Shown here: in pieces, positions 29,239-62,628 of the stretch
Position numbering within the stretch: position 1 is the stretch's first letter
Layout: the number at the start of each line of letters is the position of its first letter
Assembly: GCA_963969595.1 (NCBI GenBank)
Contig: OZ018414.1
Span: 16,289,660-16,353,659 of the forward strand
Direction of reading: 5' to 3'
Length of the DNA stretch: 64,000 nucleotides
Source of the DNA: Neckera pumila
Taxonomy: Eukaryota; Streptophyta; Bryopsida; Hypnales; Neckeraceae
The notes under the pieces: model-generated
What the model saw: the letters and a program-made list of their open reading frames with translations, nothing else
The model's database searches: none
What the model was told of the DNA's origin: nothing
Translations under genes and position numbers: made by a program

Positions 29239-31006
29239 TACAAAAAACAATCAACATGAGCGTGTATAGAATCTTCTATTCAAATTTGACACAAGCTCGT
29301 TTGTACCTTATTTGTAACTAATTGACACTTATATGAAGGTAGTTGTAGCCATGTTTTAATTTACAACAAAAAATAGAAAAATCTATTGCAAATTTCTTAT
29401 GCCTAAATTTGAAATTTTTGCCTAAATTTCAAATTTGCTTGCCTTTTGAGGAGGTACCCAATTGCCATGCTTTAGCCTCAAAAGTAAGCTCTAAAGGACT
29501 CCCAATTTTTTCATCACAACAATTCTTTGCTTTAGACTCCAAATCCATAGTGCAGATCCATTTTCTAGAAATCACTATGTATTGCTTCCTTTCTCCAATG
29601 TACGTGTTGTAATAATACATATATAGACATCATATATTACACCATTCATACAAATGAATCATACACGTATAATAGGAGAAGAAATCACTATAAGGCATGC
29701 CCATGCCACCTTAGTGAGCAAGAGGGACCTTGGAGATGATTTCACAAAAGATTGTAAGAGACAATGTGAAGGAAATGAGGAATCATGAGCAGACAACATG
29801 TCATAGTGCTCTAGTCGAGATGAAGAAGGTGGCTTGCCGCATATGCTTGGAAAGCTGGTGAAATCATGTACATTAGGGGAGAAATTGAGGGCATTGGAAG
29901 GCCGTTTCAGGTCCTTTCCCTGATCTAGCCAAATTTGTGAACAGTCGGTACGGGCTTTCAAAATTTTTTGTTTTAAAAAATAAAATAAAATAAAATAAAA
30001 TTCTCTCTCAAATGTCATTTTAGGCTATGAATTGTACTTAGGACTAGCCCATTAAGAGGTACATTTATGCAAGAATTTAGATGGGACAATCTTGCACAAT
30101 TAGGTGCAATTACCTTACATCATATATAATCTAATATTAGAAGTCATTGATCATTAAAATGACTAAAATTAACTATGATTTCTAAGAAACTCACTTGTAT
30201 ATTGACATCATCTACATTATTTACATCATCAAGCTTTAACTATGTGTTTTTCCAACATATGTGCATCTAGGTGCGGAGAGGTTGTAATTGGCCATAGAAC
30301 TTCCAGGGCCTATACAAGACCCAAAATTGAGGCACTTTTTGCATTGTGCACCTTCACTTATATCCCCTTTCAATACGCCTTTCAATACCCCTTCTCCATT
30401 AGAGAAGTTTTGGGATCACAGGACGGCCTTGTAAGCCCCCCACGGGCAGTACTAGGGCCTTGACTTTTTGAGAGGGGCATGCGGCCAGCAGGGCCTAGAT
30501 TTTGTGTGCAATGGCTTAAATGTCGCCATCAGTAAGGCAGTTTGGTACATACGCTGAAGAACTGGATTTGGATGAGTGCTTTCCAAATTGCATCTACGTG
30601 TCTCTTGGCTATGCTGGAAGAAGATAAGAGGGCTGTTTGTAGAATGATATTCCAAGGAGGAGGTACACTAATATTTTATGCATTTGCTGGGGCAATAGAA
30701 CGGCGCCAAAATCACATGGAGCTGCCACCTTGAGGGATTTTGGTGGGATAGCGTGTAGTATCCTTGCTGGCATGGACTTCAAATGGTTAGGAAGATCAAG
30801 TTGTCAGTTTGTAGTAAGCAATTCAGAGTTGCGGCCACTTTGTGCGTAGACTTTGCTACAACATGGCACTCTGCAATGTTACCAACACAACTACTTACAT
30901 TCCGCGAGTGGTGCATATTTCTTTGGATAGAAAATATGCACCACTCATTAGAAGAGGCAAGAGCCTAGTTTTGCAAGCTTCATAGTCTAGCTTTCCAAGG
31001 AAGCGA
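29239..31006. other. Repeat-rich spacer and presumed left part of element X1
   Basis: Positions 29,889-29,995 are a half copy of the 26,022 MITE (GCCGTTTCAGG, then CTGATCTAGCC and an AAATA-rich run). From about 30,240 the base composition rises in G+C toward the AB1 pseudogene. That part probably holds its promoter, leader and upstream exons. The left limit of X1 could not be fixed. Open frames at 30,242-30,968 show no homology to the better AB2 copy. Confidence 0.4.
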
Positions 31007-34000
31007 ATGGCCAGTAATACTAATATAGATTTATGGGTTGATGGCCGTTTGTATCTAGTAGATCCTATATCTAAGCTTTTGCCAGGGTTCCGCAATGCAA
31101 AAGAATATTTAGAGTTTCTATGCCATAGAGAGAGTGGGATGTTGGGTTATACCAAACGATTAGCAAGTGAGGCAATTGATAGTGCCGGAGGCCAAGACAA
31201 TAGAATGTCTCTAGAATGTAATGTCTTGACATTGCAATCAAGGGTCACGGGTTACAAACAACAAATACCCCAGCTTTGTCTTCATTGTCATGAGCTCCAA
31301 GTTGAGGCTACTAGCATGTCACATGCCACAGTGCGGCACATAGAAGAAAAGAACCAACTAAAGCGTGATGTTCAAATATTAGAAACAACATGTTGCAAAT
31401 TGAAGGGTCTGCTAACGGAGAGAAGCGACAATAATGTTGTCAAAAATATACAGCATCAACAGAAGGTCAATGCATTGGAGGTTGAATTGATGAGATACAA
31501 GGCTGACTACCGGTCATTAGAAAAAAGGTTGGGGTCTATGGTGGCAACACCGCTAGGCTTCCGAAAACAAGTACATGGGACTCAGATGAAGAGTTTTGTT
31601 GAACTAGCTAGAGGCTCCGGGTATGCTAAGCCGCGCCGGACCTAGTTGCGGGCTCAATTGCAACCGGCAGTTGTGATGAGTGTTCAACAAAACAATAGAA
31701 ACTGTAGAGCCAAAAAGAGATTAAGTGGAGATGTTCCTACCCAAGTAATGACCGCTGCATGTCTTGCAAGTTTTCTACCGCAGGGTGAGGCTTCAGCACT
31801 AATTAAAGAACCCGTAATGAGTAGAGGGACTACTCTTATACAAAAGACCTTGCTGAAGCGCACTGGAGATAGTGTGTGCTCAGACACAATGTTGGATGCT
31901 TGTGATGGTACTGGAGTAACCTACAAAGGTTACACACCTATTCATAAGACCTTGAAAAAGCGCATTGGACTTGTGGCACCTTCAATCAAGGCAAACATTC
32001 TGCCAGCTCCGGGTCGCTTAGGTAGTCTACGGAAGCAAATGAATGCAAACCTTCCGCAATTCATTGGAGAATATTATCATATTGAAGGTCAATGTATCAT
32101 TCTAGAGGTGCGGGTGGGCGGCAAGGTGGTGACAAAAGCTAAGGAGGCGATCCTCAACAATAAGAATAACCTTTTTGTAGACCTTGAGGTGGTTCAGCAA
32201 TCCATGGTCATGTTCTATAGCATGATTGTTGAAGGTAACCACCAATGCTTAGTTCTTTTTCTAAATTATTGTATACTTCATGGTATGAACCACAATGATT
32301 TGACATTAAATAGGAGAAGTCAATGATTTATTACCCGCAAGGTAATGGAGTATTTGATATATGTCATCAAATTAGGCCGCAATTCACTAATTACTTGCAC
32401 TTAGACAGAATGCACCGGAAGACCCCTGATTTTAGTACTGAAGCTTGACAAAGCAGAGGTTCAACAAGGAAAAAAGTATGAGCACATAAGTCTGACGTTA
32501 ATGAATTAGGCACTTGATCCAAGCATTCAGACAAATAGCGACAAATATTTTTCTGTTCAATCTGAGCAAGAAATTTGGCCCATTGCATGCTTTCAAGTTG
32601 GAAAGGAATCGTACAATGTTTTGAACTAGGTATTCCAAAAAACAAAATTCCCAAATGGAATAGCTGCCTAGAATAGTGGACAAAAGCTTTTTGTGAGGGA
32701 TGTTGGAGACTTTAATGTGGAATGGTACATGAGTGCAGATATGAATAATATTAAGTGTATAAATGGGTTGCAGTATGGTCCCTCAAGCAAGCATAATTGT
32801 ATCTACTGCGAGCAAGTTAATGAACGCTTGAAAACAGTTGGTACCGCTACTGAAGCAGAGCAGGTAGCTTTAGCTAAGGGAAAAAGTTTGTGGCAAGGTG
32901 GACTTTTTGCATCTAGGATTCGGTCAAAGCCTTGCAATGTTAGCACTCATCCACATTGGAAGCAAGTGTTGCCAATTCCGTTGTCAAGAATACACATGTG
33001 TACCTTTCATGCACAAGTGCGTATAATTGAGAAAATTCTCCATTTGCATTTCATTTTTGTCTGGAATATGCAGGACCCGCATAGAAAAGCTACAGCAATT
33101 GAACAAATGGAGAAATCGCTATCTGCAATTGGGGTGGAAGGGGGGAACTGCAGCTAAAAAAGGATCCCAAAAGATCTGGAAAATCTAGAAACATCGTAAG
33201 CAAGCCCAGCCTTAGTGGAGCGGTTGCAAACAGGCTGTTCTACCATAGCTCCTGGTCAACCAATGACAAGGTTTAGAAAGATGTTTGTATGTTAGAGCAA
33301 AACAACCTTCAAAGTGGTGGGGCGAGAAGAAAACGCTGGCAAGTGTAGGAGACATTGTAGGCTCTTCAGCCTTACTTTACAGGATTGGTACTCACTCTAG
33401 ATCAACAACATCAATCCAGAGCTCTCATTGATGATTTTGGAAGAGCTTACTTGGATGCATTTGGTGAAACACATGAAATTCATTACATTGTAAGTCATAT
33501 CTTTCCGTTTCCTTTGCTAATGAGTTATTCCTATATTGCCAATAAACTTATTCTATATCAACTATATGAAACTGAAGCACATTGGAATCATATTGCAGCA
33601 AGCCATTGTCAAGCACGGGCCATGGTTCATTGAAAAGTATGGTAGTCTATTAGTTTGGAAAAATCACATCACGTAGCCAAAGCAGCAAGCCAGGCGCACA
33701 CGCAACATGGTGGGACCAAAGAACGCACAAGCATTGTACAACAATACCAACATTGGTACACGAATATTCAGCATAGGTACGCCCGCAAAGTTGCAAAAGA
33801 ATTAGAAGTTTCAGACGCTACAACATCCGATTTGGCCAACATGGCTACAACAGCGCTACGATGTGATGCATGGCACGCATCTAGTGTTGCAATGGTGCAA
33901 CAAGAGTGGCAATCAAGACGTGTGCAAAAAGGCCGGAGGTGGGTACTTCCGGAGGACAAGGAATTATTGGTGCCATGCCCTGAAGTTGAATCAAGAAGAA

Positions 34001-34045
34001 AGGACGAATTGTCTCAAAGTGTAGACATGAGAAACTCCACATGAA
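31007..34045 (+). pseudogene. AB1: decayed copy of the coiled-coil/transposase-like gene
   Basis: A full-length but broken relative of AB2 (39.7-43.4 kb). Matching landmarks run in order: NIDLWVDGRLY and EYLEFLCHRESGMLGYT at the N-terminus, a coiled coil, then AKKRLSGD and YKGYTPIHKTLKKR. Next come FIGEYYHIEG, NNKNNLFVDLEVVQQSMV and LPIPLSRIHMCTFHAQVRII. The last is HHVAKAASQAHTQHGGTKER near the C-terminus. Intron sites agree with AB2: a donor after IVEG (near 32,233) with an acceptor near 32,406, and a donor after IHYI (near 33,489). In-frame stops occur near 31,643, 32,510, 32,637, 33,155, 33,274 and 33,346-33,363. Three of them (32,637; 33,274; near 33,348) sit where AB2 has Trp TGG. A short deletion before HHVAK shifts the frame near 33,655. 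It cannot make the protein. Confidence 0.85.
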
Positions 34046-34836
34046 GTACTAGCAATCCTTTTCAATTGCCCAACAACATTGACTACACTCAAGATTCAAC
34101 AAATTTTGTCGATGAAATCACAGACATCACTATGCCCTAGAGCTTGAATTTAATATATTGATCATGTTTCAATTAATCATAGATTAGAACTTAGGACCTG
34201 GGTGAGAGATATATGTTAGAGCACATGCAACTCAATAGGAGTTGTTCAATTAGAGTTAGGTCAAACTACTTGATTTTGTAGGCATTTCAACAAAAATTAT
34301 AACATTTTCAGCATTTTTATCATATATTTTGTAACCTTCCAAATCAATTACAAAAAATGAACTGCATGCTTTGCAAATCACAAAAATGTTTACCATTTGT
34401 TGCATAAGTTAGTCACCAAGGGGCATTGCTGATAAGTGAGCATGCCTGAGGTGCTGAATTCAATATGTTTTAACTTCTATACTTGAATCCAAATAAGCAA
34501 GGAACAACTCTATCTGAAGAATTTAAGGACAAGAAGACTGAAAATACAAACTCACAGAGCCCAGAGTTTGAAAATATAAACAACCATATACATTGTGGTG
34601 ACTATGAATATCATGTTCTTACTTAAGATGCTAAGTTCTACATAAGACAAGTGCAAGATGAAACTGCCATAGCATACATGAATAGAACAAAACTATGTAC
34701 AGTGTAAGAGACTTGTCTTCCAATTTGTTGGTTCGTTGGTTCTTCAAGTCTAAAAAGGGTCAATTTAGTAACTTCAACACATATTATCCAATCTTTGCCA
34801 TTTTTATATAACATTCCGTACCAAAACTACCATAAG
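34046..34836. other. Spacer between convergent pseudogenes AB1 and C1
   Basis: AT-rich 3' flanks of AB1 (plus) and C1 (minus). No gene seen. Confidence 0.6.
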
Positions 34837-35878
34837 CTATGTACATTTACAAATAGCATCTGTTGGCACGCTTATGGCATTCTGAACGGCCGATTCGGGG
34901 TCCTCATCACCTGCACAATTCTGGGAACTTGCCGGAAGAGCTGCAGCAGTGGCTATAGCATTCAAGGGACTTGTTGCGTCAACGCTTGGTTCACGATCAA
35001 GCTTTTCCATAGCCATAGCATCCTTGCATCTTAAAAAATGCAGAGCAATAGACCAAATTGTGATTTTGGAGGACAAAATAAAACAAAGTTTAACTTCATT
35101 CAACATCACCCAAGTGAAAATAATTGAAATGGAATTTTATGAAATACCTGGATATGTCGTTAGCTCCTTCACCCTCTCCTCAGCTTTCTCCACGGATTCA
35201 GTTGCGCGATTTAATCCCACCATTGCTTTTGGCAGCAATTCCTGCTGAATTTCCGTAATAGTATCTTCAAATTTTTTAGTATTCTCATTGCTGGCATTGA
35301 TTTCAGCAAGCAAAACATCCGCCTGCGCTCTTTTGCCGATGCTTCCTTTAGAGTCCTTGCAATCCTTAAGGTTTTGGCTTCTACAATTGTTTTGATGTAA
35401 TACATGTTTTGATCATCAAATTCTTCAGCTTCATAGCATCCTTGTAAGTCCTCTTTTGAATCCGTCAACTTTTTATGAAGCCTGCACTTGAGATTTTTGG
35501 CCTTCATTTCAGCCTCTTGACATTGCTTTAAGTTGTCCTTTACTGCCGCCAACCTCTTCATACCAGAGTTTGGGTTGGCTTCAAGGCCAGCCATGACCTT
35601 GCAAATCGCTTCAATTTGCTATCTCACTGCGATGGCTCCCAACATTTTAGGGTTTGTCTCCCGTTTCTTTTCACGTAAGCGCCGCCAATCCAATGCCTCT
35701 TGAGCCCAATTGACATCAATATTGAGCACAAGTATTGCATAACACCCCCGCAAGAACCGCATTGAAAAATAATTGTTGTCAAGACTCTCGCCATATACTT
35801 TAGACCAATGATTGAAAAAAGATGCAGCTTCATCGCTGTCCAAGTGTCGCAGCACAGGGCAAGCAAATTCCCAGTTAT
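34837..35878 (-). pseudogene. C1: truncated copy of the C family, Cys/His cluster lost
   Basis: The segment 35,875-35,619 reads NWEFACPVLRHL, then SKVYGESLDNNYFSMRFLRG and DVNWAQEALDWRRLREKKRE. It aligns with C2 (QVYGGQPCNNSFSLRFLRAC, then WVKEAVKRRK). Coiled-coil remnants follow (MKRLAAVKDNLKQCQEAEMK) with frame changes near 35,600 and 35,210. An Ala-rich tail lies at 35,109-34,837. The N-terminal block seen in C2-C4 (FFxxxVGLC) is absent: homology stops at about 35,878, where G-type sequence begins. The RING-like cluster is also missing. The gene converges on AB1, as C2 does on AB2. Confidence 0.75.
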
Positions 35879-37768
35879 ACTACCAAAACCACTTTAAAGT
35901 ATAACAAAGTGACTCTAAAGATCGTACCCGCAAGATTCTGTGAAGTAGATAGCCTTATTTGGTCCCTAAGCTAGGTCAGTACCAACATTTCCTCTTCTGG
36001 TTCTAACACCAAGACCGGAAACACAACAACACCAAGAACTTACAATCAGACCCTCTTTTCCTTCTCCAACCCAGTCAACTTCCCGACCCGGTCTGATCAG
36101 CTCCCATCCGCTCTTACTCACATCTGGTTTAGTTTTACCTTTGTTTCACCATCAGAGGGTTTGCCCCTTGATTTTGAGAGTGGCAGGCCCACCACTCCTT
36201 CCGTGATTTATAGTGGCTGAAGACCCACTTCTCTATTCTCCCATCTCCTACACTAATTTGGATCCGGTTTGATCCCCCATAGCAATCTAGAAAACTCCCC
36301 GGATCACCGGTCATACAAGGACCTCCCGTACGATCCTCCCATACTACAATGACCTTAGCGCCACATTCGGTCTATACGAAGCCAGGCGGTTGCAAGTGAA
36401 CCCGTCCGTTTCAACATCAACTAAAGTCCTTCTGTTTGCCCACTAAAACAGCAAGATCTCTCAGGAGATCGGACACTCAACCGGATTTCCCACCCAGGAG
36501 TTCTAGCGCGACTAAGGAATCCCTCCCTATCCGCCTAGCCTAACAACGGTTGTCTCGCCCGAAAGTCTAATTTTAGAGCTGTTGAGGAACTGAGATCCAC
36601 TCCCAACGCTTTTGCAACCCGCTCACATGCACAAAATATCAAAACGAGAACGCCAAAGGGAGAATTCAGACCTGCACTAGCATGCGCCTTCCTAACTCCT
36701 TACCACACAATCCTGCCAAACACGAGAGAGACACGCAACAAGAGGCCAAGAGAAGATGTACACAAAATTTAGGTGAAAAAACTCCCAGTTCCCAAGCAAG
36801 GGCTGACTTATATACAACTTGATTGCAAAGCAAAAAGGGCCCCTAGAAATCCACGCTGGACATCCGGGTCCGATCCTAACCGGCCAGACCAAATCAGCAT
36901 CCGATCCGGTCCTAAGTATTTTACAAATACTTTACATTCCTAACTACCTACCTACCTACTCTCCAACTCCCCCACCCAGTGTAGGACTCTTGGGTTCTTC
37001 GGGCAGTTGATTGAAGACGTCAATGAGGTTCCGGCTCCGCTCCCCGGCAACTGGATCCGGAAGATCTGACCCTGACGATGAATTCAGATGAATTGGTTGT
37101 CCAGGTGTCGGAACCTGAAAATCCACTTTTACTAAATTAAAATATAAATGAAGAAATAATATTCTTCTTAGCAATAAATTTTTTCGATTTTTAGATAGTT
37201 ATAGACCGTCTAATAATTAGAACCGGAAACCAAAAATGGACTGATCAGGAATCAATGTAAAGACTAACTGAATGTACCGGAAACAAGAAACTGGAGTTCG
37301 AGTTCGCCTAGACCGGATCAGGAAAGGGGTAACAGGAATCGGCATCCAACGGTGACCTACTTAACCCTAGGAAACTACGGGAACATTCTAATCATTAGTA
37401 AACGGAAATCCTAAACGAGCTAGTTTAACAGGCAAAGCCTAGATTAGGGGAATCATTAAGAGTAGCTGGGATTGGCTCTCTTAAACCCCATCCAACCAGA
37501 GACTGGTCACTTACATTTTCTTGCCCTAACTGAAAGTTGTAGCAACGTGCACTATTACTGATTTCCGGTCTGTGCATCAGTATTGGGTTTGAGTTGACAA
37601 ATTGCGGACGAGAGCGCTTGAAGGATATTGAGCGCAAGAGAGACGTCTACTAGCATCCCAACTTAGCATTAGTGCTTGCACAGCTGAAAGAGAGATAGAG
37701 AGAGCCGTGAGGACCACTCGTTTTCCGGTTTCCGAGAGTAGACCGGCCGCATTTTAACGGGAGGAGAT
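35879..37768. other. G-type sequence: non-coding left segment and G1 leader
   Basis: Marked by repeated ACCGGAT/ATCCGGT-like words, a composition unlike the AT-rich flanks and shared with 53.2-57.06 kb. A TATA-like GTATATAAG faces left at 36,815-36,807, and no coding frame follows it. The part nearest 37,769 should be the promoter and leader of G1. A CTAC(CTAC)n microsatellite lies at about 36,944-36,958. No terminal repeat was found by eye. Confidence 0.5.
36807..36815 (-). promoter_or_regulatory. TATA-like box facing left in G-type sequence
   Basis: GTATATAAG on the minus strand. The G2 gene has a similar CTATATAAG on the same strand at 56,808-56,800. No coding sequence follows this one, so it may serve a non-coding or lost transcript. 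Confidence 0.35.
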
Positions 37769-39213
37769 ATGGCCGCAAGTCAGAGCGGGGGAGCCACCAT
37801 CTCGCTCCGATATGTGACGCCACGATTGCCCAAGGACAAGAAGGAGCTGGCGGAGCTGAAGGAAGACTTGGAGCAAATGGGGTGCGCTGGGTTCCTGATC
37901 CGACCGTGGAACTTCAGAAGCAAAGCAATAGTGGCGGAATTGAGTCCTGGAGCGCCAACTCGCGCCGCGACCACAATCCATGCAAAGCCCAAGCGATGGA
38001 CAGCAGACATGTGGAGGAAGGTCTATGTATTTGACCAGGAAGGCGAAGGAAGTGCATCCCGGAAACACCAATATACGGTGAATAAGTTCCGAAACCCAAT
38101 TAGTAAGAAAGATGGGTTCTTAGTCACCGATTGTATCAATCAGAGAGAGAGGCGATTGTTACAGTATGTCTTGGCCATTCTCAACCCGGAAAGGCCAAGC
38201 CGAGTTTCTCTGAAATTAGCCAACACAATATTTGGCGCATAATCTGGAGATCGGAAAGTAGATTGGGGATTGGTTATCCAGTACCAAGTACTGAAAATGG
38301 TGAATAATGTTGGGAAGGTTCCGCCATCTGTCCATTCCTATTTCATCTGTATCATTCTGAGGAAGTGATGACAAAAGAGGAAGAGGTAGAGTATGAGGCC
38401 GCTGCTGCCCTGGTAGAGTTTGAAATTCCGGACTTAGATTCTGAAACCAGAAGTGAGGAAGAATCCTCAGATGAGGGAGATAATGAGGATGAGCAGAGCG
38501 AGTCTGAGAACGATGAGGATGAGAGTGAAGATGATAAGGGTGAGGAAACGAGACGAAAGGGTCAGGTAGAGAAAGAGCAGACCAAGGATACCAATCCGGT
38601 CTGGGGAGACGAGCCGTTCAAGAGAATCACCCGAGATTTCAGCGACTTCAGGAACGGATACGCAATAGTGCGAGGAGCGATGCAGACCATCTGCACCACA
38701 GTGGGCGCCGTCCACCTAGCTCAAGCCTTAACCCGGGTAATACGGCTTACCCGAGAGAAGGAGAAGAATGAAAACAAGGAAGAATTGGCAAAGCTTTCCG
38801 GCCAAGTGGCCACTCTTAAACAAGAGTTGCACCAGAAAACAGAAGAGGTGGAGAAGGAGAAAACATTCTCCAAGCAAACGAGAGACACCATTTCTCAAAT
38901 CCGGGAATTCATCACCCATCCGAGTGAAATTGTCAACAAGACTAACTTGTTTGACTAACAACTAATGGTGGAGGGACGACAGCTGCATCAAAAGCTCATA
39001 CTAGCGATGATAACTTATCACAAGAAGATGGAGTCCACGTTGGAGCAACTGCGAGAAATGATGTTCGAGGTAAACTCTCAAGGTGATCCTGCACCTAGAC
39101 CGGAACCGGATCACGAACCAGTTCAGCAGTCAACAGCAAAAGACAAGGATAAAGGTGAGACTTCTCACGAGCAACCAAACATTAGAGAAAATTTCGGGTC
39201 TCTACATGCCTAA
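37769..39213 (+). pseudogene. G1: broken copy of the G family, N-terminal part
   Basis: Starts MAASQSGGATISL. The first domain ends NPERPSRVSLKLANTIFGA and then TAA (38,240). The same frame continues SGDRKVDWG, after which a frameshift near 38,340 leads to EEVEYEAAAALVEFEIPDLD. An acidic tract rich in Glu/Asp/Ser and a coiled coil follow. A second in-frame TAA lies at 38,956, then VEGRQLHQKLILAMITYHKK to 39,213. The N-terminal domain aligns with G2: KRWTADMWRKVYVF with KRWREVYNF, KKDGFLVTDC with SKDEYAVVDC, and RVSLKLANTIF with RVTMTIGNTIF. The family is unknown to me. The acidic and coiled regions suit a nuclear or structural protein. Confidence 0.75.
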
Positions 39214-39690: not shown

Positions 39691-42600
39691 TTGACGTTGT
39701 CACAATTATCGCCGGAATTTAGGGTCATTCACATTGCTGCGTTTACTGCGGTTTTAGGGTTCATTCATGTTGCCAACGTCCAGTGCCGGAATTTTAACCT
39801 ACTTGCAGAGATGACACTTCAGGATGTTACAAATAAGGAGAAGGGTAGTTCCTACACGACATCTGTAGCTCTTCATAGTAGATTTGCACCTATTGTGAAG
39901 AAAGGCGTTCGAGTGGACCAACAGCTTCTTAAATCCGAGTTTCTAGCGTTTAGAGCGTCAGGTGCCACCAACATGGATTTGTGGTTGGATGGCAATCTTT
40001 ACCCACCGGATCCAGTCACTAGGAAGCCACCACAGTTTCAAACGTTGAAGACTTACATAGAATTCCTTTGTCACGGTGAATCTGGACTCTTAGGATACAC
40101 TAACCACCTTGTTAGCACCAGCGATGCAGTGAAAGGTTTGGAACATGAATTAGAAAAAACACAAGCGGACTGTCTTCGTGAAATAGTAATATTGCAAAAT
40201 TCAATTGCAAAGCATGTGGCTGATCTTCATGCTGTTAACGGTAGGTGGGCTGAGCGTGAAAAGGACCTTCTTGCCGCTAGCAGAGTAGAGGTCGTTGAAT
40301 TCCAGAGGAAATCGGAATTTCTGAAGGCTCGATGTACAGCACTTGAACAAGAGTTGGAGAGGAATGACCTTCGTTACAAGAGCAACCTTGTGATTTTTCA
40401 ACAAGAGCATCGGGAAGCTACTGATCAACATCAGCAACAACTTGAGTCCAGGATGTTGCAAGCAGCTGAAGAGTTGGTGCGACAGCATGAAGTACACAAT
40501 GAAGAGCTTGCGTGTAAGAAGCAGGAACTTGCAGAAGTCAGGAAGGCGTTGTGGAAGTTAAAGAAAAAAATGGAGAGGATGGTGAGTACTCCACTAGGCG
40601 CGCAATTAAGAGCAAGCAAGTGTCTGTCTGAATTATCCAAGACGGGTGGCGCTGCAAGAGCTCGTGTAGCAAAAATTAGAAGCTTGTTGCAACCCCGACT
40701 TGTTCAGTCTATACAAGATGGAAACAAGAGTGGAGGCGGTAAGAAGCGCTTGTGTGGCGACAGGGATACACAAGAGGGGACGGGCGATGCCATTGGCCGA
40801 TTACTGTCGCAAGGGGAGACAGTGGCCTTGGTGTCAAATCCTAATAATAGTTTTGTTGCAACTCGAATGGCCAACTACTACCTTGACAAAATTGGTAAGG
40901 ATTTGGGTACAGAAGCGATACTGGCAGCATGTGACATGACAGGAGTGTCACAGAAAGGATACGGCGAGATCTACAAGACAATAAAAGGGAGAGTGCAGCT
41001 TGTTGACAAACGCTTGAAGCCAACATTCCTCCCGAATCCGCACAAGGTTTGGACTTACTCACCCTAGTTCATCAATTCAATCTCCACTGTGTCTCCAAAC
41101 ACTAGATGCCCGAGACGAATTTGTACACAATGCTCAGTTAATCTAGGACAATCAATACACGAGATATGGGGTCTAAGGTTTAGGGATTCTGCACTGAGCA
41201 CATGCTGGGGAGTTGCGGTCTAGAGACCTATGCTGAGTGTGTTGGAAACAAGTTGCTTCAGTTCAATCAATAGACGATGCTGAACAATAGAACAAGAACA
41301 ATCCTCAATAGTTTGGTAGGGGGGCAATGCATAGACGACACATGTGTTTTGTGGTATATGTATTGATAAAACATGCAATACGTTCATCAGGTCAAGTTGT
41401 TGCGATCTGAACTCAATTCAAAATTGAAAGATCTTGTTGGTGACTATTATCACATTGACAGTACATTGGAGATGGTGGCACAAGCTCCAGTGACCAATAC
41501 CAAAGGAAGGAAGAAGAAATCCGAGATAACACGAGTCGTCTTGACATCAAAGAACAACTTGTTTGTTGACATCGAAGTCGTGCAGAGGACTATGGTGAAG
41601 CTATACAGTTTCACCACCGAAGGTGACTACTTCATCCTAGAGTAGATTTCTAAGTCATGTTTCCAACAGTCAAGTGACCGCTCTAACTCACTCATATACC
41701 TTGACATTTGCATGAATTAAACTCATTGAAAATCATGGTGCTCGGATGTGCAGAAGTTGGGGACCACCCATTGATTTTTGTGTTGAAGATGGAGGAAGCA
41801 GAGATTGTGCATGGGAGGAAGTTTGAAAGGGTCAGTTTGACGCTCATGAACCGTGCCTTGGACACCAGTGTTCTAAAAACCGATGATAGGTATTTTTCAG
41901 TTCAATCTGAAATTGAAATATGGCCTATTGCCTGCTTCGAGGTTGCTAAGGAGTCACATGAGGTCCTCCAGTGGGTGTTTGAACAGACACCGTTTCCAGC
42001 ATTGATCAAGGCACAAGATGAGGGCCAGCTATTATGTGTTGACGGTGTTGGCAACTTCAAAGTACAGTGGCATTTGTCTGCGGATATGAAGACCATCAAA
42101 TGCTTGTACAGATTGAAACATGGAGCCAATGCCATTCATTCTTGCATCTATTGTAACCAAGAGCGGACGAAGCCAGTGGTGGGAACATCAGCAAGTGCTA
42201 CTTCAGAGGCCAGGAGAAGAAAGCATACGTGGCATGGAGGTCTATTTGCGGGTAATGTCCTCTCTAAACCAGTATCCATTGAAGAAGAATCCCGATGGAA
42301 ACCAATTTTGTCCATCCCACTTGAGAGGGTGCATATTTGTACACTGCATGCCTTGACAAGGATGATGGAGAAAATCCTTCACTTGCACTTCATGTTCATT
42401 TGGAACATGGAGAATGAGGCCCGTCAACAGGTTGCCATAGAAAATATGGAGAGGACATTGTCAGCAGCCGGGCTTCATGGTGGCAACGTGCGCATAATGA
42501 AGGACACGGTGCTCAGTGGTGCTTCCAACAGTGTCCCTGTTAAACCATCCCTTAGTGGCGTGACTGCTGGTAGGATGTTCCAACCATCCACTTGGTCAAG

Positions 42601-43443
42601 GCAAGATCGAGTTTGGAAGGACATCTTGCGCTCAAAAAACAACACACTCAATCAAGGTAGGCAATATCTTGAACGAGTAGAAATGTGGAAAGCACTGGAA
42701 ACAGTATATCCATATTTGGTCGGTTTATCCTTGGATCAAGAGCAAATTGACACTTTCAAGGGCAAGATTGAGACTTGGGGGCGCCTTTATGTTAAGTGCT
42801 TTGGAGAAGACCACGTCACTCATTATATGGTAAGTTCTAAACATGCATGGTAACTTTTTTTCAGGGTTGATGTTAGAAATTAAAATGGAAGTTATGCTTT
42901 CCGAGGTTTAGGGAATACAGTTGCGTACTGCTAAAGTAACTAAACCATTTCTAAATGATTCAGATGTAGGGTGCCATTTCCTTAAGGATGTGTGACTAAT
43001 TTGGGTCATTTTTGTCTTTGTAGCATAACCTTGTGCGGCATGGTCCATGGTATGTGCAAACATATGGGAGCCTAGCTGTTTGGAACAACCAAGGGATGGA
43101 AAAATCCCATCATGCAGCGAAGGTGGCTAATCAACATCACACTCAGCATGGTGGCACTAAAGATAGAACAAGTGCCATCATGCAGCAATATCAACATTGG
43201 TGCAGAAACATTCAACATAGGTTTGCAAAGAAGGTGGACTTGCTGGAATCAAGAAAAATCAAGACAGTGCACAATGACCCTACAATGGCTGCCGAGTTGC
43301 AGAAGAAGAGGATGGCCTATATTACATCAAACGGGCTGAATGCAGCTAGAAGGTGGAGGGAGAATAGAGCACGAAAAGGGAGAGCTTGGCTGAGAGTAGG
43401 AGCAGAGGAGGGTGTTGAAGACAATGACATGAACAGCCTCTAG
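39691..43443 (+). CDS. AB2: coiled-coil and transposase-like protein, intact
   Basis: Exons 39,691-41,046, 41,391-41,622, 41,754-42,829 and 43,024-43,443 total 3,084 bases: an uninterrupted frame of 1,027 codons plus TAG. Introns start GT and end AG, and positions agree with AB1. Landmarks: DLWLDGNLYPPDP near residue 96; a coiled coil about 145-305; KKRLCGD near 350; AACDMTGVSQKGYGEIYKT near 412; VGDYYHID near 466; DGVGNFKVQWHLSADMKTIK near 625; CIYC near 661; HICTLHALTRMMEKILHLHF near 722; HHAAKVANQHHTQHGGTKDR near 917. The Asp-containing block, CxxC and later HxCxLH recall the layout of RNase H-like transposon proteins known from invertebrates; this is from memory and unproved. A later Met (MTLQDVTNKEKG, residue 41) is an equally good start. 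It converges on C2. Confidence 0.78.
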
Positions 43444-48046: not shown

Positions 48047-48092
48047 TCCTCCTCCTGACGCTAAGCAGGCTTCAAAGAATGCAGATACCTTG

Positions 48093-51130: not shown

Positions 51131-52743
51131 CTAACATGCTACTATTTGAAAAATCCACGGTGGTAAGACTTGTGCTACTGTCTGAGACCCTTCGTGCCTA
51201 GGGTTGATGTTAACATCTGGATGCCTCTCTCGCTGCAACCTAAACCGGAACTCGTCTGGAGCCACATCACCTAGAGTGATAGAAACCTCTGTCCGAATGT
51301 GGGTCAGGTGCCAACTTTGACCAACTTCGAACGTTGCAACCATGACACCTTCAAAATAGCAACGAAGAAACACCATCTCCTCTTCATCTGTTTGGTCGAT
51401 TTGTTCCCAGGTAACACCATCTTGTGCCAACCGCTCCCTTCCGTATGTGAAGTTCGTGTATAGAGTGGATCTCCCCAAATGGTATCTGTGCACAAGAACA
51501 CGAGTTAATCAACCTATAATGCACACAGCACAATTGGAATCACCCTCAACCACACATTGTAACGGCCTTTGCAACAATGCAATGCTGTTGTCCACGTCCA
51601 GTAAGTTAGTGAGTTAGTGATTGTGGACAGAATTCTAGAAACACAGCAATGGAAAGGTGTTGGCAACAGAGAGTAGGCATCAAAAGCCTTCTGTACCCAA
51701 GTGAGGACTGAGATCGATCAAACACACCTGAAAGTTACAGACGGCTTGGAAATCGTGCATCTGACTATATCTTTTGCAAGCACGATTTTTTGCTCCCACC
51801 CCGGGTCCATGAGACTCGTGAAAAACTTGTCACTGGGGTTGTTTAGAACATACAGGGTAGATGTCCGTCTCATGCTGTCGCCATCTGGGGCAAAGAGATC
51901 GACAAAAACATGTAGTGGAAGAAACCATTGCAGATGCCCCATGCGGCTCCCGGTGGTGATTTTAGTTACCGATTGGAAGTCCGCCTTAAACTTTGCTCTG
52001 AAAGCCTCGCTAGTGTGCATATCGGGAAGAGGCCACTCGGCATCAGTGAATGCTGGCATACAGCAATGGCTCAGTGCTGCCATACAAAAGACCTGGTATG
52101 GGGGGAACATACACACGATTAGAGAAAAAAATCCCATTATTAAGGAGATCAGTGTAGGACCTTCCTGCGCGGGTGGCCTCACCAACATCGCTGTGTAGAA
52201 CGACAATGACTCCCAGTATAGAGCCCGGCTCCACCCAGTCCTCAAAGTATGACTGGTACAAAACTGTTACCAATAGCAAACACAACACAGAATTAACAAC
52301 TATCAAGGATCAAGGTCAACATGAACTTGAGAATTAAACATATCTGCTGGAAACAAGCGGTGAATCAAATTGCAGTGGCTTCCAAGGCTTTTCAAAATCT
52401 CACAGTTGCGGGGAACTCGATCATGGCGTTCTTCTGGATCTAACAACACTTGATGTCTTTCGTAGGCGTGTCTCACCAACACAGACTGCAGTTCCGGCTT
52501 GTTGGTGACAACCCTTTGCTTGTCCACCTTGAACCAGAAATCCACAATTTGAGCTTTGTATGACCCCCTCATGTTGTCACCTCCAAACCTGCGCGCCTCT
52601 ATAGCCCAACTACCGACCCTTCCTGGATTAAGCCTCACCCACGAAAACTTCTCAAATCGTGTTGGAATCCACTCACCATCATCGTTGTGAGTAGTGTGTA
52701 AGGTGACTGCACACACCTGGGCACGAGGTTGATGATTCGCCAT
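51131..52743 (-). CDS. D3: unknown protein with beta-rich N-terminus and ubiquitin-like C-terminus
   Basis: Three parts: 52,743 to about 52,310; about 52,252-51,728; 51,485-51,131. The last splice is clean: TTTCAG|GTGTG to GTGCACAG|ATACC. The start MANHQPRAQVCAV is supported by D4 (MEHQG...). Part 1 carries DGEWIPTRFEKFSWVRLNPG, then NMRGSYKAQIVDFWFKVDKQ and LVRHAYERHQ. Part 2 carries FEDWVEPGSILGVIVVLHSD, then DMHTSEAFRAKFKADF and LQWFLPLHVFVDLF. Part 3 carries YFEGVMVATFEVGQSWHLTH, then VSITLGDVAPDEFRF and ends PPWIFQIVAC. The last 90 residues look like a ubiquitin-type beta-grasp fold, by eye only. A frame change near 52,065, before AEWPLPDMHT, suggests one frameshift, so the gene may be recently inactivated. 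The family is not recognised. Confidence 0.6.
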
Positions 52744-53181
52744 TGCCATTCTCAACTGTGCTCAAAGTCTATTGCAATCGGATCCTGGTTTGACTGGAGA
52801 TGACATGAACTTGCAACCGAGAATTTGAACTCCAACGTCTGTACTTTCCCGCCAGGGGTACTTCCACCCATCACCCTCACGGGCGGCTCTACTACTTGTT
52901 TCAAGCACGGTAGAGTCAGGACTTGTACAAACCATGGTATAGACGTTGTCAACATCCATTTTTTTATAAAACTACAAGGATCACTTTTATGATGCCACCT
53001 TTAATTAATGGTTTCCATCTAAGAATAGCTACTGGTCCAAACCCCTTCCCAATCTGATGTCACCACCTGAGGTTCCAACATGGACAACGCCATGTTGAAA
53101 TTAAAATGGATTTTCCATTGTACCTTTTGGGAAAATAGGCCAATTTCTTTTTGGGCACTCCTACACCCCAATTCTCCTCTA
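52744..53181. other. D3 upstream region and right end of element X2
   Basis: Probably D3 promoter and leader. A minus-strand stretch near 52,955-52,760 (VQVLTLPCLKQVVEPPVRVM) slightly resembles sequence upstream of D4 (LTLPGDVLEKLRTLWPS) and could be an additional 5' exon. The proposed X2 border is at 53,181/53,182, next to ATGCCTA. Confidence 0.4.
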
Positions 53182-53932
53182 ATGCCTACCTGTACCCGAG
53201 GAGCACCAGGAAGCCAAGACAAGTCAGGTGCAGCAGACTGAGGTGGTGAGCACCAAAGTCACCGACCCAGATCCGGAGGACGATGATTTGGAAATCACGA
53301 AGGTGACGGGAAGAGATCCAGCAAAGGCACAAGGACCGGATCGGGCAACCGGACCAGGAGGGTCCATTCCAGAGGAGAGTGCCAAGGCGAAGCAGATTAG
53401 CACCCTCTCACCCTCCAAGTCTTCTCCCAAGACTCTCGGAAAGAAGGTGCAGTTTGGAGATGCAAAGAAGATGACAACTCTGATGCAGTCTGTGGTGAAG
53501 ACAGAGATCGGAGCCAGTTGCGACACTTCATCCGGCTCACCAAGTAAGGGCCTAATCAGGAAACCGGCTGGAGGAGATGCAACACCTCAGAGCAAGGTAG
53601 CAAAGCCTGCTCCAGTCCCGCAGAAGAGGAAGGCTCCTGAGCCACAGTTGGCCAAGAAAAAATTCACCAAGGTTCAGGAGGAGGAGGAAGCAGAAGAGGA
53701 TTCCGACTATGATGAAGAGGAATCTGGTTCTGACCTGGATTCTGAATTTTATTCGGATCCCGATTAGGCCTTGGCAGAGACTCGCGCAACAAAGGCAAAG
53801 GCGGCCAGAGAGAAGGCCAAAGTCCGGTCTAAACAAACTGCCAGGCCGCAGACCGGAAAGAAGCCCTTAACCTAGAAGGGACCAGCAAAGGCGAGGTTTT
53901 CTCCAATTAAGAAGATTAGAAAGTAGGTGAAG
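53182..53932 (+). pseudogene. G3: C-terminal acidic/basic part of a G-family gene
   Basis: Reads CLPVPEEHQEAKTSQVQQTE, then a Lys/Pro/Ser-rich segment and an acidic stretch (EEEEAEEDSDYDEEESGSDL) to TAG at 53,765. The same frame goes on ALAETRATKAKAAREKAKVR, meets TAG at 53,873, and ends with a basic tail to about 53,930. A Gln codon to TAG change would explain the first stop. It has no start of its own, and the composition matches G1 (37.8-39.2 kb). I infer it is the 3' part of the G1 gene, separated by insertion of X2. The reading frames of G1 and G3 do not join directly, so at least one more indel is needed. Confidence 0.55.
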
Positions 53933-55058: not shown

Positions 55059-56525
55059 CTAATCCTTGGGCTCCCTCGGATTTGACCCTTCGGCTGCAAA
55101 CAAATCCGGTAGCAAGATGTCCAAGAGGTGGATCTCCCGGAAGTACATGGACTTGTTCAGCTTCCGACTGCTAACTTCCATCCGGTTGGCCGCCTCTCTC
55201 GCCACCACTAAGGACGCTTCCACCCGATCGGTGAAGTCGGTGAGGATCCAAACTATCCGGGAACCGGATACCTTCTTCTCCTCATGCACCCCTTTATCAA
55301 ATAGTACCGCCTTGACTGAAGTGGATCCGGATTCTTTGAGAGTGTCCTTTACCGACTCAGACACCTTCCGGGTCGCCTCTACCATCTCCCGGACTGCAGC
55401 TTTGTCTTCCTTGAGGGCTACCATGTCAGCCCTTAGGGCGTCGACTTCCTCCTAAAGCCGACGAATCTTTGCCTCCTGCCTCTGATTCTCATCCGGATCG
55501 GCTAGGTACTGGCCCACCTTACCCGGCAAATTACTATCCGCCGGTGCACCCACCATCTTTCCGATACTGGTGAGAGCTCTCCCCTTGACCTTTCAGTCAG
55601 CTCGTACCCCACACAAGATTACGGTCAACTGGTTGAACGGGTCGGTCGGGTCTTTGGGATCCGACATCTCCACATCCGGTCCTTGTCCAGGAGTGGACCG
55701 GGTGTTTGGAGGGGTTCCGCGCTTGCAAGGAGGCGTCGTCTTCATTCGCTTCCTCGGCCGGAGTAGCTCCTCCTCTTCTTCCTCTTCCGTTTCGGGTTCA
55801 GATCCAGTTTGTTCTTCCATTTCGTCATCCAAATCCGACTCCCCGTACTTCATGATAGACTCCTGAAGGCTCCAAGTCTTCTCCTCCGTCTCTGTGAGGA
55901 GTTGATTTCGCTGGTAGAGGTAGAATAGGTAGGGACTCAAAGGAGTGGCCCTACTCTTTCCGATCCTTGTCACCAACTGGGACACCAGATCAAAAAAGAT
56001 CCGGGCCCAGTTCACTTTCCATTCCCCGCTCAGGGAATCGAAAATTGTATTGCCAATGGTCATCGTCACCCTCGTCGGCTTCTCCGGGTGAACGATAGGA
56101 ACCAGGAACTGTAGGAGATTTCGGTGCCGGTTGCTCTTACAGTCCACGACCGCGTATTCGTCCTTGCTACTCGGCTCCCCATGAAACTTGTCATGGATAA
56201 ACTCGTCCTTCTTTCCAGCCATGCCGGAACCTCCCATCCGGAAGTTGTAAACTTCCCTCCACCTTTTTTCTTCCCATTCGATCGGACGGCCCCGGAGAGT
56301 GTTGTCAAACTTGTTCGACACCTTACACCTAATCTCTCTAATCATCCATCCCTCCCTAAACCCCTAGGGTTTATCTATCAAGACAAGGCACCCCATGGCG
56401 TTGAGGTCCTCCATGAGCTCAGTCCGGGCCGGTTCCTCCATAGGAATGACCGAAATTACCTTCCGAAGCTTGACGTTGGAGGAGGAACTGGGCGCGCCCG
56501 GTCTGGTCTTACGCAACTGAGGCAT
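55059..56525 (-). pseudogene. G2: broken copy of the G family
   Basis: One continuous frame from MPQLRKTRPGAPSSSN (ATG at 56,525) to NPREPKD at 55,059, interrupted by three stops. TAG at 56,366-56,364 follows LVLIDKP; G1 has RPW there, so TGG became TAG. TGA near 55,590 follows CGVRAD. TAG near 55,450 lies between RRL and EEVDALRAD in a coiled coil, most simply CAG to TAG. Conserved block: EEKRWREVYNF, SKDEYAVVDC, HPEKPTRVTMTIGNTIFDSL, KVNWARIFF, TPLSPYLFYLYQRNQ. An acidic run and coiled coil follow. There is no frameshift, so base substitution alone silenced it. It is oriented opposite to G1/G3 and could be a second gene of the same element or a second, inverted element. Confidence 0.78.
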
Positions 56526-56808: not shown

Positions 56809-57440
56809 CCCTGGACTCCTGGCAGGTCATCATGACCTTTTCCGGTCCGATCCATATCAATCCGGTCCAACCCTAATCTGATCTGAGGTGAAATCCGGAT
56901 GTGATTCCGTTCTTGAATACTAACATTCTGACCGGATCAGATACAATTTTCTCCTTACTGGATTAGCGGTGCCTATTTCCAGTCTTTTTCTGTCCCTCTA
57001 ACCAGATACGGATCTTAACTACCCGTTTCCGTTCCATTATTTAGATAAACAAAGGAGAACCAAAAATTTTGGTTGCAACAAACTTGAACATCAATGGGAG
57101 GGTCTTAGTATTGTAGCGTACTAGCAGAAGTAGACTTTAATATTAGGATGTACTAAAGCACCACTATCTGTTCATTATGCTCTTTTTCCCCCCCACATTC
57201 TACAGAACAAGTCTATCAATTAATAGCTACATCTTTCTTATCCATGGAAGTAGTAGAGATGCAAACTTTAGATGTAATGTGGTCTTTGGATGAGGGAATT
57301 GCCAGCAACAAAGCTCTTTTTAATGTGCTGTAGCAATCGTATTCCAATGTTTTTTGTAGCCCAGTTTTGTGTTTAATCTTTGGAGATTCCAACACATTGA
57401 GTTCATTGTTGTTCTTAGATTTCAATTTACAATCATCGTG
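56809..57440. other. G2 upstream DNA, right limit of G-type sequence, C4 leader
   Basis: The CCGGT-rich composition ends at about 57,060, after which sequence is AT-rich up to the C4 start. This marks the right border of G material. No repeat of the left border (35,879) could be recognised. Confidence 0.5.
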
Positions 57441-59143
57441 ATGGGAGATGTTTCTGTAGGCCGGAGAGCAGCAAAAATCAAACCCGGTAGACAAAGTGAT
57501 TGCAGCTCAGATGCTTTTGAAGTACCCGCAGACGTTGATTTTGAAAAGTCTTCATCTCTGAGCGTATGGAAGATGCCCTTCGATTGCACAAAATTGCCAC
57601 AAGCAGTTGTCCAACACATGGTAGATGGAGTCCCTCTCTTGATGGGCCTTGATTTTGCAATTTATATGAAGAAATTCTTTGTGGACACTAGTGGTCTTTG
57701 CAGCTTTGGTTATCCTTTCAAGAAGCTTGTGGAGGATGACTTGTTTCCAATTGAAGACATTGTGCATATCTTTCCACTGAGCAAGACCAAGAATCAACAC
57801 CCATTAAGGCTTATTACAGATAAAGAGCCTGCGATTGAAGCGTTGTACATGTACCAACGCGTGTATGGCGGGACGCAACCAGACAATGGAGAATTTGGGA
57901 TGCCATTTTTTTTTTGTGGGCTTCAAAACCAGTGGAACAAACAGGTCAACTTTGCAGCAAAGGCCCAAGAGCTTGCTTACAACTCTACGTACAAAAAGCC
58001 CTGGAAACAATCCGCAAAAGCTCTTGCCTCCTTGCATCCGTGAGCAAATCCAGATTCTTATTGACATTTTTGCAGAGTATCTTGCTATCGCAAACAATGG
58101 AAAGAACAATAGTCGCAAACACAGCATTTATCGTCGACCGAGTCTAGGGCAATCGATGTGTGAAATGTCAATTCCTACTATGGATATTCAACTCAAGTCA
58201 TCAGCTAGTGCAAAACTAAGCTCTACAGTGTTAGCTTACAATTGAAGCGAGACATAATAGCCAAGTGGTTGTGTTGGGATGAGCAAGCCGAACTTAGGAA
58301 GCAGTCTAAGCAACCCAGCCTTGACAAATCAAAGATTGCGGAGTTGAATTCAGCAGTTAGAGAGAAGGGTAAGCAAGCAAACAGATTCACGAAATCTGTA
58401 GAAGCAACCAAAGAGTTACTCGCTACCAAGAAAGCTAAGTGTAAGACATGCAAGGAGCAGATCACCTTATTGCAAGACGATATTGGCGCTATGTCGGAAT
58501 CTATTCATGTTATATTGGTGGAGAGTAGTTGCATCCGCTCAAATCCCTACATTGAGAAGCTACATGCTGAAGCATTGATTCCTACAAAGCTTAATTTGAA
58601 AGCATCTAAGCCATATGATGGTTGCGCCCACTTTTTCATTGACCAAGCACTTGTACCAATGAGTTGTGCGTGTCTTTTCCATCCCTACTGCATATTTTGT
58701 ATGGCCATAATAGCCCACCCTACTTGCCCAAGGTGCTTTATAGCTCCCACTATTGCGTGGATGGTTCAATGGGGTTTTCTACCAACAATGAAAGTATGCA
58801 AATCAGCATGAAAGCTACTTCAGCAAGCATGCATGCTTTGGGTTCGGGTGTTTTAGATGTCCATACGACAGCTGTGTCCGCCAAATTGGCAAATGTTTTT
58901 GCTTACGTAATTAACAAGGATCCGGTGGTGACTAACTCAAGGCAAATGGTCAAGTGGAAGCAAGATCGGGAGCAAGAGAGTTCTAATCCTGCCAAGACAA
59001 AGACCCATGAGCAACCCTGTGGATCAAGGCCTTTGTCTATGTTGACTCCACGTCCAACTTCTCCAAATACAAATACAATTCTAGAAGTAGTGAAGGATAT
59101 TACTCATGATCCGGTTAGCAGTGAGGCACTAAGGCGTGACTAA
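57441..59143 (+). pseudogene. C4: decayed copy of the C family
   Basis: Starts MGDVSVGRRAAKIKPGRQ. Homology to C3: VWKMPFDCTKLPQAVVQHM, FFVDTSGLC, then VYGGTQPDN. A frameshift near 57,990 is needed to reach PGNNPQKLLPPCIREQIQIL, which matches C3 GNNPQKLGPPTLKNQM. A further break near 58,240 leads to the coiled coil and the cluster DGCAHFF...SCACLFHPYC...PTCPRC. The first Cys of the cluster (C-x2-C in C2 and C3) is lost. A third frame change near 58,795 precedes an extra tail (KWKQDREQESSNPAKTKTHE) ending RRD at 59,143. It is AT-richer than C3 and non-functional. Confidence 0.8.
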
Positions 59144-60362
59144 ATAGCTACAATGCTACAATGTTATATGCAGTCACTCAGCCTTGCTTCATCCGGCCTA
59201 AACTACTCTGTAATTTTGCTACAGAACCTTGTTGGATTTGTAGGTCAGAAATAGTGAAGCCATAAGTTTGTAGGCGACTTTTTTTGCTTTTTATTTTTAT
59301 TCTTTTTATACATTCATGCAACTTTCAGATGTAGCATGAAACATGTTTTGGCCTTGCTTGAGCATGAGCATGAGCAAGGGAGGCAATCCCTGATTGAAGC
59401 TACTTGTCACTTTATGCTCTAAGCTCTAGCTAGTGCAATATTTTTACATGTATCCTATATTTTATAGCTATAAGACTATGCTTATATTTCCTATATAATT
59501 TTCTTTGTGATTTCTCACTCTGTCACTATTATTTCAAGTGCTTGTTACTTCTATTTAATATAGTCATTTCAACTAGAATTTGTGTGATAATGTAAAGACC
59601 ATTGACTTTTTTTCAAATTGGAAGACAAATTTTTGTTGTTCACTCAAACATGGTATTCACCTTGTGATGTATAATTTGTGCATTCTAGAATTTTCCATTT
59701 AATAACACTCTACAGTGAGATTATAAATGCAAAGGAGAACTATGGTGCATTGTCAATAAAATAACATCTCAACATCTATATATTTTGTACACAAGTATTG
59801 CAACAAGTTTTTTATACGTTTGTTTTTTGAGTTTTCTAAATGAACTTAGGTATTCTATGATCTATAATTGGGACCTATTACTATAGTTAACAACTTGAAT
59901 CATGACTCTAAATATAGCAGCATGCTTTTCATTCATAACATAAATTGTGGCAATGTAAAAAAACTTGTAGGACACACATGAATTGGGATTGATTTTAGAA
60001 AATTGATTCCACTTGAAGTTCAAAATTACAAAAATCGATCTACCACAAAGGGTGCTTTCAAGCATGTTTCAAAACTACTATGGATGCTGCAACATCTAAT
60101 ACCAAAAATCAAAACCCTACCATCACTGATGAAATGTAGAACTTTGCACTATCGACTAGTAGTACACTCTACACTAACTGCTCAGTGCCAATCAAAACAT
60201 TAATCCAGATGTAATTGTTATTGCCGCACTATGCAAGGACTATGTAAACCTCCTATTTGCTGGCAACACAGTGCCTATCTCTGTTACGGCCTCGTACCTG
60301 CAATTTATCTGAAACAAGAGAAGACATTTGGACAATTAGGCATTATTATGTAATACTTTAAT
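59144..60362. other. Spacer between convergent C4 and D4
   Basis: AT-rich 3' flanks. No gene seen. Confidence 0.6.
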
Positions 60363-61562
60363 TCAAACTTTAACAAGTGAGTTGTAGAACCTCTTTACCT
60401 TTGTGTTAGGATGCCTTGTTCTCTTAATAACAAGACCATAATAGTTTGGAATGTTGTCCCTTGACAACAAAATGCTTATCTCATCCCTAATGTGGGATAC
60501 TGGCCACGACTTTCTAACCTCAAATGTGGGCAAAACAACAGCTCCAAATACAATAGTGATGATCACCATCTCGAAAATGACAGCTTGGTCTATCTCCACC
60601 CAGGTTTGCGGCCGCATGAGTCTGTACCTCACATACACAAAGGTAGCATACCAAACCTGCCTTGCTTTCTGATAGAAAAAGAGAATGCTATTCCTGCTGA
60701 CCACACATTTGATGGAGTCTGCACCAACTTGGAATTTTTGGTCTCACCTTACATCCATAAGACTAGCTAGGAGCTCATCTGTTGGAGCTTTGAACACATA
60801 CATGGTCAGTGTGCACCGCACAGACGCTCCAGCTGTAGTAAAAATGTCCACCATTACGTGCATGGGCATAAACCAGTGCACATGAGCTGCCCAACTACCA
60901 GTTCCTCCCTTCATAGCGGCCGCAATGTCAATGGCAAACTTTAGACGAAAAGCCTCCAAAGTATGCATATCTAGAATTTGCCACTCAAGATCGCTGAATT
61001 TAGGAAAAGGTTAATCCTCTAAGCTTCAATAAAGCTCTGCTCCAGAGCAAGGCACGTAGACTGCTCTCAAGTAAAACGTCCCATTCTCCATCAAATCACG
61101 ATGAAGCCTTCTATTCCTTGTAGCTTCTTCAATCATGTGATGAAGCACAAGTATGATGTCAAGCACAGAGCTGGGTGGCACTAGGTCTTCCCAAAACAAT
61201 GTATAGAGGTAATTGCAATGTTGTGGCTCACCAACTTCAACCATTGGGTCCAAATACAACTACCGGCGTTGGTATGCATGCCTCACCAATATGGATTTGA
61301 GGGTCATTACTGTCAAACCTCGCACTGTGCTGAAGGCCCACTTAAAACCAATTATTTGGGCTTTCCAAGCACTTGCATTGGAATCCTCTCCATAAATCCG
61401 TGCATCTCTAGACCATGGACCTCGTGATGAAGGTTTCAATGTAATCCACGTTCCCTTCTCTACATGCATAGGAATCCACCGACCTGCAAGATCTTTATCA
61501 TTATAAATGACCACACTTTGCACCTCTGCCTATGGTGCAGAACTTATACCCTGATGCTCCAT
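60363..61562 (-). pseudogene. D4: decayed copy of the D family
   Basis: Begins MEHQGISSAP with TAG soon after. It continues GRWIPMHVEKGTWITLKPSS, then WKAQIIGFKW and LVRHAYQRR, followed by TAG at about 61,261-61,259 where D3 has Gln (AYERHQ). Next come FWEDLVPPSSVLDIILVLHH and DMHTLEAFRLKFAIDI, then HWFMPMHVMVDIF. After a frame change, GAVVLPTFEVRKSWPVSHIR aligns with the ubiquitin-like part of D3. The order and spacing of blocks follow D3. It converges on C4, as D3 does on C3. Confidence 0.78.
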
Positions 61563-62628
61563 ACTAGATGTTGCGCACTGCTTTCACTGCTGCCGCACTA
61601 TTTTTCCAATTGACTACCCTCAAAATGCATTGAACATTTAAACAATCCCGAATTTGATGGCCACAATGTTCTCAATTTCTCTAGCACATCTCCCGGCAAT
61701 GTCAAGTGCCATGTTGTCACCTTTCCCTCCACCATCAGTTGTTGTCCATGCATTAAATTAATATAAACTTGCAAATATTATAAACTTTGTTACGGAGACG
61801 CAGTACTGGCCACAATGGCAAACAAAAATTTAACCAGCCATAGACACGAAAAACTGGACTTCGTTTCAACTTTGTCCACCTACCATGTGGAGGTGGCAGA
61901 ATGAGATTGGATGAACCCGGCATTGTTCATACTGTTTGGTATGTGTTGTCACCATTGGTAATCTCTGCTTTTAGGTACCTCTCTCGGCAGGGCAGGGTAC
62001 TTTGCTTGACCACAGCCAACCCATTGAGGGCCTTGCGGAGAGTCAAAAAAACCTCTAATGACTCATTCTTTCACTGCCCCCTCTATTTCATTGTTTTCCT
62101 ATCTTTGTTACAATGACTTTCTTCACTTCTTTTCTACTGAGAATCTCACTGCATTGCAAGGTTCTTTGACACAACACATGTCATGATTTCCTGTCCCTCA
62201 AGCTTTGAAACCTGATGTGAGATACAAGGTGTTAGAACTCAACAAATCCAAGTAGACAGTGTTTCAAATATCACAAACCAGATTGTAGCTAGAGTGCAAC
62301 AATAATGAATGTTCAAAAGGATGCAAAAAATTATGACATATGTATATAACAAAATGTTTCAGGCCTGATAGTCTGCTCTTCGATTCTAGCGCCATTTTCC
62401 TGACAGTTCTGCTTCAATTCCAAACCGCTGTACAGTAGAGGAGCATCATGTCAAAAATTACAACTTCATTACACTCAGACTTCTATTCTAGAGTCTTCAA
62501 GCCCAGGATCAATAGTCTCAATATTTAAGACAGTGGTGTTCAATTCCCAGACTGCCCAAGTCCTTTGAAACTGGAGCATGGAAATCCAAGAACTGGTGAC
62601 TGCTGATGAAGTCTTTCATACTATTATT
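61563..62628. other. Right end of X1 and spacer before BTB2
   Basis: Upstream of D4. The border of X1 is not identifiable; GC content falls after about 62,100. No gene seen. Confidence 0.45.

Follow-up and report, generated by a model that had tools for sequence, protein, structure and literature searches.

What kind of element could account for a mirror-ordered set of four genes that occurs twice in one stretch of the genome of the moss Neckera pumila? The question is raised by a window of 64,000 nt (contig OZ018414.1, positions 16,289,660 to 16,353,659; "the window" denotes this whole stretch, to which all coordinates below refer). When every open reading frame (ORF) was compared with the window by tblastn, three gene families, AB, C and D, were found between 30.8 and 61.6 kb in the order AB1> <C1 / AB2> <C2 C3> <D3 / C4> <D4, with arrowheads giving direction. 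A previous sequence-only reading had grouped them into two sets, X2 (AB2(+) C2(-) C3(+) D3(-), ~39.8-52.8 kb) and X1 (AB1(+) C1(-) to the left of X2 and C4(+) D4(-) to its right), and had called AB transposase-like, C RING-like and D ubiquitin-like. All eight genes or remnants that it proposed were recovered at or near their positions and on the right strands, the families recur in fixed order and orientation with similarity far above chance (AB1 against AB2, E 2e-139), and all three protein characters found support. Its view that the proteins fit no mobile-element class was not supported, because the predicted fold of AB groups with RAG1/Transib transposases. The interpretation favored here, at a probability of roughly 0.58, is that the four genes constitute one family of cut-and-paste DNA transposons with a RAG1/Transib-fold transposase, and that X2 lies in an older X1.

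The identification of AB as a transposase is firmer than the inferred mobility of the four genes as one unit or the proposed mechanism. AB2 (39811-43443, + strand; exons 39811-41046, 41391-41622, 41754-42829 and 43024-43440) has three GT-AG introns, and its reading is open after splicing, giving a product of 987 aa. Genes divided by such introns mark the window as eukaryotic. AB1, the decayed transposase gene of X1 (30863 to ~34041, +), matches AB2 at 32% identity; parts of its exon 4 were found at 33637-33792 and 33646-34041, and the aligned reading, which crosses an intron and a frameshift, contains 14 stops. Among 5.8 billion predicted proteins, 11 relatives of AB were found (best E 4e-126), at least 3 of C (best E 1e-133; here the 7997 candidates with the highest word overlap were scored) and 14 of D (best E 4e-108), all from jgi, ena, lgn and ncbi protein records and none with a precomputed Pfam domain. 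No relatives were found by pattern scans of IMG/VR and GTDB genome contigs or by tblastn in phages. The structural comparison that the sequence-only reading had suggested was made with the AB relative P0002 rather than with AB2, and CMC folds lay outside it; RAG1/Transib structures occupied Foldseek ranks 1-6 and VIA ranks 1-33. By this predicted model, AB has an RNase H-like core nearest to RAG1/Transib.

The layout of predicted active-site and zinc-binding residues agrees in part with that of RAG1/Transib transposases. Both catalytic Asp residues are kept in 11/11 relatives, as is a CxxC motif (ZnC2) located 20 residues from the second Asp. The catalytic Glu is present in P0002 and AB2; nine of the other ten relatives end at the preceding intron and one ends earlier. 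An HxxxxH motif (ZnH2) is likewise present in P0002 and AB2, no other member having this exon complete, so that ZnC2 and ZnH2 flank the insertion as they do in RAG1/Transib. The exon encoding the Glu lies beyond an intron that directly follows the HYM codons of the AB gene. In 9/11 relatives the sequence [HF]Y[MIL]V is followed by dissimilar tails, while one relative stops earlier and one reads across. Because such divergent tails are what gene callers produce at a GT donor, the intron after HYM is probably common to the relatives, which from this shared intron are probably eukaryotic. The two other introns of AB2 are missing from AB1, and those relatives that are sufficiently long read through the corresponding sites.

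The two C genes of X2 are divergent. C2, the left one (43911-45512, -), is tail to tail with AB2, carries RING ligands in the arrangement CAGC...SCGCGFHPIC...CPCC and has one in-frame stop (45129-45131). C3, the right one (48299-50131, +), is an intact ORF of 610 aa with homologues P0012, P0013 and P0014 at 49, 38 and 39% identity. In X1, the left C gene survives as a remnant, C1 (~35589-35879, -; matched by C2 in tblastn over 94 residues at 35589-35870, E 5e-18), which may extend further down, and the right one as the decayed C4 (~57441-58811, +; tblastn with P0013 at 57567-58778, E 2e-28), with 5 stops. The zinc-ligand pattern C-x2-C-x13/14-C-x-C-x2-H-x2-C-x11-C-x2-C was found in five of six C proteins (C2, C3 and P0012-P0014), C4 being unmatched, and in none of 13 AB proteins (AB1, AB2 and P0001-P0011, several of them partial). 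RING proteins were also the top Protein Data Bank (PDB) matches of the C family profile, at a weak E of 0.0025, and a PHD match appeared in one of five C members at an E of only 8.4.

D3 (51131-52761, -) lies tail to tail with C3; its reading is interrupted and shifts frame, and it encodes a C-terminal ubiquitin-like (UBL) domain, a fold seen in the D relative P0018. Searches of Pfam and PDB sequences gave no family at cut-off for D, the best hint being ubiquitin at E 0.11 in one of 14 members. A BAH domain was considered on the basis of a Foldseek match to the BAH-PHD protein EBS and was rejected because the match (E 0.045) is too weak to call. No kelch domain is listed for the 14 D or 5 C members, although the D model is poor outside the UBL domain. 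The X1 gene, D4 (60246-61544, -), is decayed, with 7 stops, and keeps a single reading frame throughout; it matches P0021 at 53% identity (tblastn E 1e-170) and D3 at 33%, and it groups with P0021, P0022 and P0024 (97/97), D3 lying outside this clade on a long branch. The D3 row of this tree includes a short stretch in the wrong reading frame. That D4 is nearer to P0021 than to D3 argues against a recent local duplication of the two; the gene order of both sets is the same nonetheless.

That distance bears on the simplest alternative, that AB, C and D belong to an old tandem cluster of ordinary host genes. A BTB-like pair at 22.5-23.8 and 62.6-63.9 kb does resemble a local duplication (74% DNA identity), and AB1 and AB2 fall in the same clade, but the separation of D4 from D3 and the transposase fold of AB make a host cluster very improbable.

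Several observations weigh against a RAG1-type transposon of four genes, beginning with AB itself. At the first predicted catalytic position AB2 has Glu (KMEE, codons 41786-41797), where 11/11 relatives have Asp (KLDE), as does AB1 (KLDK), and AB2 has probably lost its catalytic activity. The AB sequence as such resembles RAG1 weakly: the exon 4 score was reached by 2/500 shuffles, and that of the whole AB profile by 15/120. Searches of Pfam and PDB sequences gave no family at cut-off for AB. AB might instead belong to the CMC group (Chapaev/CACTA-like), with RAG1 merely the nearest solved fold. To our knowledge no CMC transposase structure has been solved, and a fold search would therefore be unable to reveal CMC membership. 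RING fingers are reported in two Chapaev subgroups, and Chapaev is treated as distant kin of Transib (Kapitonov and Koonin, PMC4411706, in part). On the other side, no transposase family appeared among the best 25 of 31 Pfam families for 10 AB relatives at E up to 10, a weak test in that the RAG1 family was absent too, and the gapless match HxxxxH...GS..W..[EQ]GxE is to RAG1 itself. A CMC identity is considered unlikely.

The remaining adverse observations concern the unit. The sequence-only reading had described X2 as well kept and X1 as decayed. The second description holds, stop counts in the aligned readings being 14 (AB1), 7 (D4) and 5 (C4), worse than in X2; the first holds for the intact C3 and for AB2, open once its introns are removed, and fails for C2 with its stop, for the broken D3 and for the Glu of AB2. 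X2 is therefore damaged too, and neither copy in the window is intact. AB1 and AB2 share a clade with P0001 (100/100) whose internal order is not settled and in which AB1 is a long branch, a weaker picture than the D tree gives of separate origins for the X1 and X2 genes. Inverted ends and target duplications were no better than in resampled sequence, the best scores being matched by 12/12 resamples for X2 and 27/30 for X1. Terminal inverted repeats starting with CAC, paired with 5-bp duplications, likewise stayed at the level of resampled flanks, and the ends of the decayed copies were not located. A search for inverted repeats over 33.5-60 kb, run with no control, gave 65 pairs, the best of 36 nt at 72%. 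Eight of nine local alignments of flank pairs fell within the range of 20 shuffles; the ninth, an AT-rich direct match of 37127-37168 with 29971-30008, reached a score of 32, where the highest among the shuffles was 30.

Since no ends enclosing all four genes were found, the locus might be built of two separate convergent-pair elements piled side by side, AB> <C with a transposase and C> <D without one. The order in the window could just as well be read as pairs, with each C facing its own partner tail to tail, and most known RAG-like transposons consist of two convergent genes (PMC7204232, in part). Composition, however, couples AB1+C1 with C4+D4 (GC 0.405 in both; CpG observed/expected 0.49 and 0.42) and AB2+C2 with C3+D3 (GC 0.458 and 0.476; CpG 0.58 and 0.62). 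The C tree groups C1 with C2 (100/98), and the best matches of C4 are the C3-like P0013 and P0012, as one left and one right C per unit would predict; this is weakened by the joining of long branches, by the mere 94 residues of C1 and by an unsure placement of C4. A pile of separate pairs is judged unlikely. Because composition pairs the two halves of X1, a single X1 unit (AB1 C1 plus C4 D4) interrupted by X2 is favored. From this we infer, short of proof, that X2 is nested in X1, which fits the facts; the far side of X2 was searched for the N-terminal part that C1 lacks, a find that would have proved nesting, and nothing turned up.

Under the four-gene transposon interpretation, AB would be the transposase, with an RNase H core, an active site of Asp-Asp-Glu and a zinc-binding site of CxxC and HxxxxH; in view of these features and the RAG1/Transib fold, its cleavage probably proceeds through a nick and a hairpin. 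RAG1 has a RING domain within its own chain. Here RING would be supplied in trans by two proteins, the left and right C, while D would contribute a ubiquitin-like domain, and C and D together are probably a ubiquitin-pathway accessory with an effect on transpososome turnover or host silencing. X2 would have inserted into, or beside, the middle of the older X1, and both copies would have decayed afterwards.

The closest known relatives of such an element share only part of its design. RAGL/ProtoRAG (RAG1L + RAG2L) is alike in being a multi-gene DNA transposon with a RAG1-fold transposase and a convergent, tail-to-tail partner gene, but the partner here codes for a RING protein, there is no hint of a kelch-type RAG2, two extra genes (the second C and D) are present, and AB has no fused RING. 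In a typical RAGL transposon, RAG1L and RAG2L are convergent, the ends resemble recombination signal sequences (RSS) and 5-bp duplications are present (PMC7204232, in part); RSS-like ends were not found here. AanRAGL of a pelagophyte alga indicates that RAGL is not restricted to animals, although its RAG2L is located upstream with the same orientation, and neither C nor D is mentioned (Tao et al., PMC9435367). Transib-like proteins occur in plants (39), fungi and bacteria (Tao et al., PMC9435367), yet Transib has one gene per element (PMC7204232, in part) as opposed to four here. Chapaev is alike in linking RING to a transposase distantly related to RAG1, but there the RING is fused to the transposase, which it is not in AB, and the RING-transposase fusion has been placed in an ancestor by Kapitonov and Koonin (PMC4411706, in part). 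The available parts of PMC7204232, PMC9435367 and PMC4411706 describe no element of this kind in which RING and ubiquitin-like proteins have genes of their own, and no description of the AB/C/C/D gene set was found in literature searched by titles and abstract openings, mostly outside subscription papers. There is slightly less than an even chance that the locus represents an undescribed RAG1-type branch, with RING and ubiquitin-like functions as separate genes, four in mirror order, the RING genes back to back and each paired convergently, one with the transposase gene and the other with the ubiquitin-like gene.

RAG1/RAG2 is the source of V(D)J recombination in jawed vertebrates, and the path from a single-gene Transib to a multi-subunit machine is an open question. 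A RAG1-fold family that took on RING and ubiquitin-like partners in place of RAG2 would, if real, provide an independent case for comparison, a second, RAG2-free way to build a multi-subunit RAG-like recombinase, and would bear on the reason for the RING within RAG1.

Other features lie within and around the block. The spacer between C2 and C3 (45513-48298) is AT-rich at 46-48 kb (GC 0.306) and may contain a later insertion; a repeat, 28730-28860 and 46882-47012 (76.5%), is common to the AT-rich stretches at 26-30 kb and 46.0-48.0 kb. A fifth family, E, missed by the sequence-only reading, forms an inverted pair flanking X2 (33-35% identical), with no third copy in the window at E 1e-3. E (37742-38955, +) consists of ORFs with acidic and coiled-coil-like stretches and no Pfam family at cut-off, and its paralogue E' (55062-56363, -) is unlike X1 and X2 in composition; whether either belongs to the element is uncertain. 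CpG is higher in the E pair than in X1 or X2, and the pair is perhaps a separate, younger layer. Between D3 and E', a charged ORF of 194 aa with an acidic tail (53183-53764, +) has no Pfam match. The BTB-like pair mentioned above, two copies of a BTB/POZ-ANK-like gene in the same orientation (22460-23787 and 62632-63865, -), about 40 kb apart, flanks the whole X1/X2 block, PF25553 scoring above cut-off in the second and below it in the first. Finally, an F-box-like gene fragment at 8853-9230 (-) scored slightly under the Pfam cut-off.
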